From the NCBI GenBank assembly GCA_964017185.1, contig OZ024878.1, forward strand, positions 1,456,501 to 1,520,500: a stretch of DNA of 64,000 bases. Reading direction: 5' to 3'. Position numbers and translations under genes: made by a program. Every line of letters starts with the position of its first letter. Position 1 is the first letter of the stretch. This stretch comes from Rugalucina vietnamica. Lineage: Eukaryota; Mollusca; Bivalvia; Lucinida; Lucinidae. Positions 30,801 to 54,800 of this stretch are shown here, piece by piece. The notes below the pieces were generated by a model, which worked only from the letters and a program-made list of their open reading frames with translations, made no database searches and was not told the DNA's origin.

Positions 30801-33800
30801 TGATGTAGCATAGCCATTGTGAAGAGGTACCCTGGCATGGCAGGTGTTAGATTCGGTCCCATCTATGATGTTGTATAGTCCCAACACGACGGACATACTA
30901 CTGCAGTAGATGAACCGTTTCACTCCCACCTCTTTACATACTTCTAATAAGGCACATGTTCCTTTTGGAAAACAAAAGTTATGGCACATTCAAACACATG
31001 CAGTTAGTGAAAATGGTGCTAGAAGTGCTACATGCGAGCAGATATTATATATGTAAGTATATAAAAATACAAAGTAAAGACTATCAACCAAATAAAGTAT
31101 CATAAAATATAAACTTAAAACTGGAATAATTATATTGCAAGATGTAGGTAAAAGAATAAAATAAAAAGAGGTAAAAACAAAGGAAACAAAAGATTAAGCA
31201 GATGGTTTGTAGCAACGATAATTGTCCATCAACGACTTCTGTTCACCATGAACAAAAGTCGTTGCGGCCGCAACGACTTCTGTCCACTAGACAGTAATCG
31301 TTGATTTTTCAACCGTTTCTGTCCATTGTAGACAGAAGTCGTTGCTGTGGTAGATATGATCTGCAGTGTCAACGATAACTGTCCATTTCTGAAAAATCCA
31401 GAAACTTGAGTATGATGCAGTGATTTTGCCTTATATCTTGACACTCAATTAGTATATTTCCATTCTTCTTTCAGATTATGAGTATGTATGACCTGACCTT
31501 TGACCCCAATAAACTTAGAGGTCACTGTGACCTAATTTCACGGTTCAGTGATTTTGCCTTATATCTTGACACTCAATTAGTATATGTTCATACTTCTTTC
31601 AGATTATGAGTGAGTATGACCAGAGCTTTGATCCCAATAAACTTATAGGTCACTGTGACCTAATTTCACGGTTCAGTGATTTTGCCTTATATCTTGACAC
31701 TCAATTAGTATAGTTTCATACTTATTTCAGATTATGAGTGAGTATGACCAGAGCTTTGACCCCCAATATACTTATAGGTCATTGTGACCTAATTTCACGG
31801 TTCAGTGATTTTGCCTTATATCTTGACACTGAATTAGTATAGTTTCATATTTCTTTCAGATTATGAGTGAGAATGACCTTACCTTTGACCCCAATAAACT
31901 TATAGGTCACTGTGATTCGGTTCAGTGGTTTTGCCTTATATCTTGATACTGAATTAGTATATTTTCATATTTCATTCAGATTATGAGTGAGTATGATCTT
32001 ACCTTTGACCCAAATATACTTATAGGTCACTGTGACCTAATTTCACTGTGACCTAATTTCACGGTTCAGTGACTTAAATCTTGACACTCAATTAGTATAT
32101 TTTCATACTTCTTTCAGATTATGAGTATGTATGACCAGACCTTTGACCACCAATACACTTATAGGTCACTGTGACCTAATTTCACGGTTCAGTGATTTTG
32201 CCTTATATCTTGACACTGAATTAGTATATTTTCATACTTCTTTCAGATTATGAGTGAGGATGACTTTACCTTTGATCCAAATAAACTTATAGGTCACTGT
32301 GACCTAATTTCACGGTTCAGTGATTTTGCCTTATATCTTGACACTGAATTAGTATATTTTCATACTTCTTTCAGATTATGAGTGAGTATGACCTTACCTT
32401 TGACCCCAATAAACTTATAGGTCACTGTGACCTAATTTCACGGTTCAGTGATTTTGCCTCATATCTTGACACTCAATTAGTATATTTTCATACTTATTTC
32501 AGATTATGAGTATGTATGACCAGACCTTTGACCCCCCAATACACTTATAGGTCACTGTGACCTAATTTCACGGTTCAGTGATTTTGCCTTATATCTTGAC
32601 ACTGAATTAGTATATTTTCATATTTCTTTCAGATTATGAGGGAGTATGACCTTACCTTTGATCCCTATAAACTTATAGGTCACTGTGACCTAATTTCACG
32701 GTTCAGTGATTTTGCCTTATATCTTGACACTGAATTAGTATATTTTCATACTTCTTTCAGATTATGAGTGAGTATGACCTTACCTTTGACCCCAATAAAC
32801 TTATAGGTCACTGTGACCTAATTTCACGGTTCAGTGATTTTGCCTTATATCTTGATACTCAATAAGTATATTTTTATACTGTTTTCAGATTATCAGTGAG
32901 TATGACCAGAGCTTTGACCCCCAATAAACTTATAGGTCACTGTGACCTAATTTCACGGCTCAGTGATTTTGCCTTATATTTCGACACTCAGTTAGTATAT
33001 CTTCATTCTTCTTTCAGATAATGAGTGAGTATTAGCAGAGCTTTGACCCCAATATACTTATAGGTCACTGTAACCTAATGTCACGGTTCAGTAATTTTAC
33101 CTTATGTCTTGACACTCAATTAGTATATTTTCGTACTTCTTTCAGATTATGAGTAAGTATGACTAGACATTTGACCCCATTCTACTTATAGGTCAGTGTG
33201 ACCTAATTTCATGTTTCAATAATTTTGCCTTACATCTTGACACTCAATTATGATATTTTCATGCTTCCTTCAGATTATGAGTGAGTATGAACAGAACTTT
33301 GACCACAATATACTTATAGGTCACTGTGACCTAATTTCATGGTTCAGTGATTTTGCCTTATATCTTTGCACTCAATTGGTTTATGAACATAATTCTTTCA
33401 CATTATGTTTGTGTATGACAAGACCTTTGACCCTAAAGTAGTCCTAGGTCATTGTGACCTGATTACATGGTTCAGTGATTTTGCATTTTATCTCGATTTT
33501 CTTTTGGTATATGAACATATTTCTTTCACATTATGTTTGCGTATGACAAGACCTTTGACCCTAAAGTATTTCTGGGTCATTGTGACCTAATTTCATGCTT
33601 CAGTGACTTTGCCTTATATCTTGACACTCGGTATATTTTCATACGTCTTTATTATTATGAGTTAGTATGATAAGACCTTTGACCCTAAAGAACTTATAGG
33701 TCAGTGTGAGCTTATTTCACGGTTCAGTGATTTTGCCTTGTATCTCGGCACTCAGTTTGTGTATTAACATACTTGATGTACAATATGATTTAGACGTTTA

Positions 33801-51800: not shown

Positions 51801-54800
51801 TAGATTTCTACCCCAGAGGTCCGATGTCATGGAACCTAAATTGTATGAAGTAAGATATCTTTCTTCGTACAAGTTAAACAGCAGTACATCCATTTTTACA
51901 GTGTTCTAGTTTTTAACCTCTAGCTCCATCCCCCAGGCATGGACCCAGGGATCTAATGCCATGCAATGAAACTCAACCCTACAAGGTACCTATGGTTCAA
52001 GTATGAAAGCCCACTGATAAAAGATTTTAAAGATATAGACTTCTAGAATACTATATCACAGAAAAGCCATCAATAATGGTGTGTTAGATTTTTAAACTTC
52101 CAGCCGCCCCCCCCCCCTCTCGGGACTGGACCTAGGGGCTCGATGCCATGGAATGAAAGCTAACCCTACAGGGTATCAATAGTCTAAGTATCAATGCTTT
52201 CTGATGAGTTGTTGTCAAGATTCTAGAAACCTTAAACGCTAGTGTAACGCGCACGCGCACGGGAACGTGGACGACCGCGGTGAATACCATAGCTTTATGC
52301 CCTTTGTGTAGTCGACCTAAAAACAATATTTAGGCAGTTCTAGATTTTGACCTCTAGCCCCGCCCCTGACTCCGACCCAATGGTGTGTATGAACTATGAA
52401 TGTTTTATGATAAGTTGTTGTCAAGATACGAACTCTTTGTAAAAAAATAAGAGCTGTCGCAGGACAGCGCGCTCGACTGCTTCTGACCTTTGACAAACAT
52501 AAGGCCAAACCTGACCTGTAACCCAAAGCATTATGCTCATACATCTCTTTACCTTGATTCAAGAAGGCAAAATCACTCAACCAAGAAAGTTAACTATAAC
52601 TACCTAAGATTTAAAGGTCTCACTCACATTGTGAAAAAAGAGTGTTCATATACCAAATGTGTGCCAAGATACAAGGCAAACTCACTGAACTGTGAAATAA
52701 GGTCACAATGACCTAAAAGTTCTTCAGGGTAAAAGGTCTAGTCATACTTCCTCATAATGTAAAAGAAATATGATCATATACCTATTGAGTGTTGAGATAT
52801 AATGCAAAATCACTGATCCATGAAATTAGGTCATAGTGACATATAAGTATGTTTGGAATAAAGGTCTGGTCAAACTCATTCATAATCAGAAAGAAGTATG
52901 AAAAGATACCAACTGAGTGTCAAGATATAAGGCAAAGTCACTGAACCATGAAATTAGGTCACAGTGGCCAAGGAATACTTAACGGTCAAAGGTCTTGTCA
53001 TATGCAAACATATCATGAAAGAAGTATGTTCATATACCAATTGATTGTCGAGATATAAGGGAAAATCGCTGAACCGTGAAATTAGGTCATAATGACCTAT
53101 GACTACTTTAGGGTCAAAGGTCTTGTCATACCCAAACAAAGTGTGAAAGAAGTTGGTCATGAACCAATTGAGTGTCAAGATATAAGGCAAAATCACTTAA
53201 CCGTGAAATTAGGTCACAGTGACCTATAAGTATATTGGGTTCAAAGGCCTGGTCATACTTACTCATAATCTGAAAGAAGTAAGAAAATATATTAATTGAG
53301 TGTCAAGATATAAGGCAAAATCACTGAACCATGAAATTAGGTCACAGTGACCTAGGAATACTTCAGGGTCAAAGGTCTTGTCATACGCAAACATATCCTG
53401 AAAACAGTATGTTCATATACCAATTGAGTGCCGAGATACAAGGGAAAATCACTGAACCGTGAAATTAGGTCATAATGACCTAGGACTACTTAAGGGTCAA
53501 ATGTCTTGTCATACGCAAACATATCATGAAAACAGTGTGTTCATAAACCACCTGAGTGCCGAGATATAAGGCAAAATCACTGGACCGTGAAATTAGGTCA
53601 TAATGACCTATGACTACTTAAGGGTCAAAGGTCTTGTCATACGCAAACATAGTGTGAAAGAAGTTTGTTCATATACCAGTTGAGTGTCGAGATATAAGGC
53701 AAAATCACTGAACCGTGAAATAAGGTCACAGTGACCTATACGTATATTGGGGTCAAAGATTTGGTCATACACACTCATAATCTGAAAAAAGTATGAAAAT
53801 ATACTGATTGAGTGTCAAGATATAAGGCAAAATCACTGAACCGTGAAATTAGGTCACAGTGACCTATAAGTATATTGGATTCAAAGGCCTGGTCATACGC
53901 AAACATAGTGTGAAAGAAGTTTGTTCATGTACCAGTTGAGTGCTGAGATATAAGGCAAAATCACTGAACCGTGAAATAAGGTCACAGTGACCTATAAGTA
54001 TATTGGGGTCAAAGGTCTGGTCATACACACTCATAATCTGAAAAAAGTATGAAAATATACTGATTGAGTGTCAAGATATAAGGCAAAATCACTAAACCGT
54101 GAAATTAGGTCACAGTGACCTATAAGTATATTGGCTTCAAAGGCCTGGTCATACGCAAACATAGTGTGAAAGAAGTTTGTTCATATACCAGTTGAGTGCC
54201 GAGATATAAGGCAAAATCACTGAACCGTGAAATTAGGTCACAGTGACCTATAAGTATATTGGGGTCAAAGGTCTGGTCATACACACTCATCATCTGAAAA
54301 AAGTATGAAAATATACTGATTGAGTGTCAAGATATAAGGCAAAATCACTGAACCGTGAAATTAGGTCACAGTGACCTATAAGTATATTGGGGTCAAAGAT
54401 CTGGTTATACTTACTCATAATCTGAAAGAAGTAAGAAAATATATTAATTGAGTGTCAAGATATAAGGCAAAATCACTGAACCATGGAAAGTAGGTCAACC
54501 GATCCTTACCGTCAAAACACACAAGTCAGTCCATCTGTGAATGTTGTTTGCTAAATGGGTGTCAATGTATGTACTTACAGAACGGTTTTAACAGTAATCA
54601 GCATGTTTCGCAGTGCTCTATGAAAATGAACAGTAGTCGTTGAAAATAATTTTTATATCTACATGCTCAACGACTATTGTCCATTTAGCTAGTGGACAGA
54701 AGTCGTTGCGGCCGCAACGACTAATGTCCATGGTGAACAGAAGTCGTTGATGGACACTTATCGTTGCTACATGGTTTGGTAAACTATCTCACACATCTTT

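Follow-up and report, generated by a model that had tools for sequence, protein, structure and literature searches.

The question raised by this locus is how a large inverted-repeat structure came to stand in the genome of the lucinid bivalve Rugalucina vietnamica: as a palindrome that grew in place, or as a copy of something mobile. The structure lies in a window of 64,000 nucleotides (C10:1456501–1520500 of a 1.09-Gb genome in 47 contigs) that contains no N. A sequence-only reading had described it as a giant foldback-like element, mobile or once mobile and apparently non-autonomous, and this description is supported by its many genomic copies, target duplications and paralogous empty sites. 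Very probably, the stretch is a copy of a family of about 150 giant non-autonomous terminal-inverted-repeat DNA transposons, mostly 13–25 kb in length, for which no transposase gene was found.

The inverted ends of the window copy, read inward from positions 31208 and 54771, are identical at 39 of 40, 78 of 82 and 80 of 90 positions, in line with the 82-bp ends proposed earlier. Starting from 31202 and 54777 instead, as first suggested, only 73 of 82 positions agree, because these coordinates take in the flanking ATGGTTT, which is a direct repeat. ATGGTTT is indeed found on both flanks (the left one at 31202–31208), but the 7-bp duplication that the sequence-only reading had deduced from it is shorter when placed in register. 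The family terminus is TGTAGC...GCTACA, starting with T and ending with A, and therefore the in-register duplication of this copy is TGGTT (5 bp), read in the flanks at 31203–31207 and 54772–54776. Beyond these outer stretches, the two ends diverge into left-type (L) and right-type (R) subterminal regions. The left terminal inverted repeat (TIR; 31208–31417, plus strand) is of the L type, begins with TGTAGCAACGATAA and holds hairpins of the end motif; it folds far better than shuffled sequence (z −6.8). The right TIR (54498–54771, minus strand) is of the R type and ends with GCTACA.

Genome searches with these ends, as the sequence-only reading had advised, revealed many further copies. The first 42 bases of the end gave 194 forward and 197 reverse matches (≤3 mismatches), with 0 for the reversed-pattern control. 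An L-specific 70-mer has 151 genomic copies and an R-specific 91-mer has 139 (≤3 mismatches; reversed controls 0). Totals are genome-wide, while the match lists for ends and repeats give about the first 100 places each, best matches first; the pair statistics rest on 200 such listed ends, and on 92 for contigs C1–C5. Exact matches make up 88 of the best 100 listed L ends and 70 of the best 100 listed R ends, and the listed ends are found on contigs C1 to C17. The 200 listed ends form 67 facing pairs within 60 kb, 65 of which join an L with an R end (34 as L+R− and 31 as R+L−); the remaining two join L with L, and one of these has another listed 42-bp end in between. Among the listed ends, the facing pairs have a median length of 19.3 kb and range from 8.4 to 51 kb, and five close neighbour pairs are not facing. 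On C1–C5, the 92 listed ends yield 30 facing pairs (29 giants and one 0.85-kb element), where random placement expects 0.33 and reached a maximum of 4 in 2,000 runs; other neighbour orientations there comprise 7 '--', 3 '++' and zero '-+'. About 150 copies of about 19 kb would amount to nearly 3 Mb, or around 0.27% of the genome.

These elements insert as whole units, with target duplication and a site preference. Both flanks were read for 16 giants, of which nine have a duplication of 6 bp, one of 7 bp and two of 5 bp, the window copy among the latter; mismatched flank pairs, used as a control, gave zero duplications of at least 5 bp in 5,000 draws. A central GC (NNGCNN) is present at 24 of 37 insertion sites, compared with 2.6% for the GC dinucleotide in the window (binomial tail 3e-29). 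Of the 37 sites, 16 belong to the giants, two to short elements and 19 to single ends (duplication unchecked for the single ends). As they cover giants and short elements, the NNGCNN preference is common to giants and short relatives. Empty sites had been named as a further check, and paralogous uninserted sites exist for two copies. For the 21-kb copy C1:50080287–50101417, whose left duplication is damaged, the joined flanks align across the junction to dispersed-repeat copies without the insertion; uninserted matches to these flanks were found at six places in the window, four of them spanning nearly the whole match. For the copy C1:44122934, a neighbouring local repeat spans the joined-flank junction with a single TAACCT (BLAST match, read by eye). 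The 51-kb copy C2:39340126–39391397 has matching 6-bp duplications despite much extra DNA, including reverse-transcriptase frames.

Seven complete giants share a common order, namely TIR_L, an A array of 128-bp units, a left spacer (SpL), a B array of 210-bp units, inverted B (B'), a short inverted A array (A'), a right spacer (SpR), a further A' array and TIR_R, with extra inserts in some of the seven. An eighth giant, of which the first 10 kb were read, and the smallest pair (8.4 kb), of which only the middle 2.5 kb were read, agree with this layout over those parts. Array lengths vary freely between giants, and among six copies that lack a central insert, compared by eye, no two have the B-to-B' junction at the same position. 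The eight giant copies read contain no N, and mis-assembly is unlikely because several of the loci read show the common layout while differing in array length. When B units were compared, 195 of 267 matched the corresponding arm of other elements more closely than the opposite arm of their own (means of 93.2% versus 92.0%); this difference is small, and suggests that the palindrome is older than the spread of the family.

In the window copy, an A array of about 18 units (31418–33774, plus strand) is followed by SpL (33775–34974, plus strand), with 95–97% identity to other copies, and by the B array (about 34975–45121, plus strand). The centre between the B arms (45122–46257) consists of a dispersed repeat and B fragments. 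On the other side are B' (about 46258–51170, minus strand), the short A' array (about 51171–51660, minus strand), SpR (51661–52520, minus strand) and the outer A' array with about 15 units of 128 bp (about 52521–54497, minus strand). The A' tandem repeats themselves were placed at 51189–51653 and 52632–54497. Inverted B and B' segments of about 3.7 kb are 85–87% complementary. The mirrored A-B and B'-A' arrays recognised earlier are thus present and inverted, but the arms are inexact mirrors, with spacers and repeat numbers that differ between left and right. That the unit has no protein-coding part was likewise a sound observation, the longest stop-to-stop frame being 106 codons; an Rfam search over 31200–54780 of the window gave no match. 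The repeats in its flanks have a molluscan look. The dispersed repeat of the centre (45919–46241) has further copies in the window at 12624–12946, 17005–17330, 21282–21580 and 58854–59136, and other copies of it elsewhere host one giant and one 0.85-kb insertion. The window also holds three further satellite-like tandem arrays with 147–151-bp units (2379–3168, 5616–6306 and 10284–10804) and, at 28991–29735, a tandem duplicate of a 372-bp unit of minisatellite-like DNA with a 99% match.

One of the two mirrored arrays, B, is built of the elements' own end motif and has so far been found only inside giants. The B repeat has 5,184 genomic matches, and all 100 listed ones lie inside giants, 83 between listed L and R ends and the other 17 in the copy C1:62781409, which has no listed right end. 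Counted on both strands of the window copy with ≤1 mismatch, the 12-base motif AACGACTTCTGT has 81 matches in B, 41 in B', two in the centre and 4 and 3 in the two TIRs, with zero in the A arrays, in the spacers and in 40.4 kb of flanking sequence. The idea that the arms grew by satellite amplification suits B in this respect, but not A, which appears to belong mainly to another dispersed repeat family, here called 'type 2'. From 8,564 genomic matches of the A repeat (≤2 mismatches), one of the 100 listed lies inside a known giant, and 70 of the 100 lie within 2.5 kb of an exact terminus of the 'type 2' repeat (2,252 genomic matches). In the stretch of C1 that holds these listed A matches, 45 of 50 listed 'type 2' termini are followed inward, at a distance of 1.0–1.6 kb, by an A unit. 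The right arms of the complete giants were also surveyed, and a 'type 2' terminus is embedded in six of them, including the window copy, with 86–89% identity over 63–64 bp; in c3_32.7 the terminus is split into two pieces, and c2_12.6 carries a second, identical one. In the window copy, this terminus lies at 52260–52323 (minus strand, 86% identical), and SpR resembles modules of the 'type 2' repeat. The presence of the terminus both near A units and within giants suggests that A and SpR are common to, or derived from, this repeat. The 'type 2' repeat itself (C1:1365140 and about 2,250 other places) begins with TTTTTAGCTCGACTGCACGAAGTGCATAGAGCT, followed by modules of about 147 bp and then by 128-bp A units, and is mostly without a nearby facing partner among the listed matches.

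The ends of the giants also occur on short relatives of between 62 bp and 0.85 kb. The shortest (C1:14332056–14332117) is an inserted 62-bp hairpin that consists solely of two family ends and lies within a perfect 6-bp duplication (GTGCGT); it may be a minimal mobile unit. The 0.85-kb relative has a 6-bp duplication as well (AGGCGC), while for two relatives of about 0.44 and 0.65 kb the second end was located and the duplication was not established.

To estimate age, 39 ends in loci L001–L038 were collected and, after two untyped ends and one duplicate had been dropped, 21 L and 15 R ends were compared with their consensus. In this similarity-chosen set, divergence is 0.2–1.0% in the outer 120 bp, 1.5–2.7% at positions 121–200 and about 5–9% in the adjacent A units; SpL of the window copy differs from other copies by 3–5%. 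By these values the burst looks recent, and the ends look more conserved than the interior.

Combined, these data suggest the following mechanism. A transposase supplied in trans would recognize the TGTAGC...GCTACA ends and insert the whole unit, preferring NNGCNN and duplicating mostly 6 bp, and the same unseen enzyme would probably move the giants and their short relatives. In Galileo, transposase-binding sites lie within the tandem repeats of the long TIRs (PMC3688188); by analogy, the B arrays, rich in the end motif, may represent additional sites of this kind, and their amplification would have taken place within the element. The A arrays may have been acquired from another dispersed repeat or may have a common origin with it. 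Array length and palindrome centre would have been altered, either following transposition or between one transposition and the next, by recombination or by deletions that hairpins promote. A bolder version, which we put forward tentatively and consider unlikely, is that the end motif has turned into a private satellite that offers more than 100 extra putative docking sites in the window copy, making a selfish 'binding-site sponge' transposon. If so, a coding-free palindrome of about 20 kb would gather the enzyme, synapse and either jump efficiently or outcompete the autonomous source, leading to about 150 copies, and such a transposon would perhaps be a type of its own.

An autonomous partner with these ends, for which the sequence-only reading had advised a search, was sought in frames and protein families. 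Frames above 110 codons outside the repeats of the giants read include none that is transposase-like by eye. In the 32.7-kb and 51-kb copies, the additional DNA has coding capacity for Pfam domains of reverse transcriptase and endonuclease, and of six further frames in the 32.7-kb, 51-kb and C4 copies, five have no Pfam match and one has a zinc knuckle only; frames scanned in the C4 copy matched no Pfam family. TNP-like_RNaseH_N (PF21787), which we take to mark P-like transposases, has 20 matches in the genome, none near the listed family ends (by eye; end lists partial). For the integrase core (PF00665), 150 scored matches were listed, none closer than 13.8 kb to one of the 241 listed ends; 150 scored matches were also listed for PF13683 and were not compared systematically with the ends, and the matches listed for both models are mainly large frames that look like LTR (long terminal repeat) elements. 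Four end fragments in which divergence sets in a short way inward of the end (L064, L070, L071 and L075) showed no convincing coding frame by eye, with no family search made. An integrase-like frame of 384 codons at C11:38199600–38202800 scores above the Pfam cut-off for rve_3 and below it for rve and Chromo, and no match to the family ends is present in the 3.2 kb read. By eye, that locus looks Polinton-like, with other long frames after the integrase-like one. A Polinton was also considered for the window copy, which has no integrase or polymerase frame of its own.

Several points weigh against a transposon family of this kind. No transposase with the family ends was found, a weak negative that covers the frames read and the Pfam matches listed. 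No listed partner is present for 66 of the 200 listed ends, and 4 of the 16 giants with both flanks read have no target duplication. Most listed A matches lie outside giants, and thus A need not share in the mobility of the family. The conservation gradient of the ends is partly biased, since ends were chosen by similarity; the bias concerns the outermost 42 bp and, as best matches of a 99-bp query, the ends in L001–L008.

If the giants are mobile, the type of enzyme may still be asked. It is possible, albeit rather unlikely, that they are moved by an integrase-like transposase of the IS3EU/GingerRoot type. The 6-bp duplications and TG..CA ends fit the description of GingerRoot, which has TA..TA or occasionally TG..CA ends (PMC10045372), but no integrase-like gene was found with the ends of the giants among the matches listed. 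IS3EU is described as always having TA..TA termini with a 6-bp duplication (PMC10045372), in contrast to TGTAGC..GCTACA here. A Galileo or P-superfamily foldback, hinted at by the sequence-only reading, seems improbable. In its favor are the long, internally repetitive inverted repeats, the P-like matches in the genome and the tandem repeats of about 210 bp in the TIRs of one Galileo subfamily (PMC3573991); against it, a 7-bp duplication occurs in only one of 16 giants, none of the P-like matches, judged by eye, is near an end in the partial lists, and the family is far larger than the Galileo TIRs described, which reach about 1.26 kb (PMC3573991). A satellite palindrome that grew in place, or else an artefact of assembly, with inverted ends arising by chance, would explain why tandem repeats make up most of the sequence and why the centre junction varies between copies, but is scarcely credible with about 150 copies, paired heterotypic ends, target duplications and paralogous empty sites. 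To our knowledge, rolling-circle elements (Helitron/Helentron) make no target duplication, and the giants have both target duplications and inverted ends on both sides. A rolling-circle origin, suggested by the satellite-like central arrays of non-autonomous Helentrons in Crassostrea gigas (PMC7492417), is therefore equally hard to believe.

The transposon family favored here has long inverted repeats made of tandem subrepeats and several copies with target duplications, as expected structurally for foldback elements, and is best read as a new variant of foldback-type transposons. Drosophila FB elements likewise have long inverted repeats of tandem subrepeats, but are much shorter than the giants and have another duplication length. 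The Cg_HINE elements of C. gigas are small and are not known to have mirrored arms or a target duplication. They resemble the giants as mobile elements that spread satellite-like arrays, but are classified as Helentrons (PMC7492417). Galileo shares the long internally repetitive inverted repeats (PMC3573991), its own tandem repeats carry transposase-binding sites (PMC3688188), and by description it differs in its 7-bp duplications, much shorter arms and known transposase (PMC3573991). Dada elements were also compared; they have no inverted ends and insert in small RNA genes (PMC3706591), while the giants have inverted ends. A text search of the open PubMed Central literature, not by sequence, found no description of such a family.

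The family suggests that units of about 20 kb, lacking a transposase gene, can be mobilized by a trans-acting enzyme at high copy number. It also ties a satellite, known so far from the elements alone, to transposon ends. Whether arrays of the end motif promote or impede transposition becomes testable with this family, as does the way in which large palindromes are maintained through replication. Closest in design is Tetris/DAIBAM of the Drosophila virilis group (PMC4079207). Tetris is also non-coding and non-autonomous, with tandem repeats of about 220 bp in variable number in its inverted repeats, and has ends in common with the short MITE-like (miniature inverted-repeat transposable element) DAIBAM, as the giants do with their short relatives (PMC4079207). 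Compared by description, its TIRs reach up to 1.7 kb and its duplications are 8–10 bp (PMC4079207), in contrast to the mostly 6-bp duplications here. In the accounts cited, the arms of foldback-like transposons extend to about 1.7 kb at most, whereas the present family consists of units of 8–51 kb, typically about 20 kb, with two different repeat arrays and about 150 copies.

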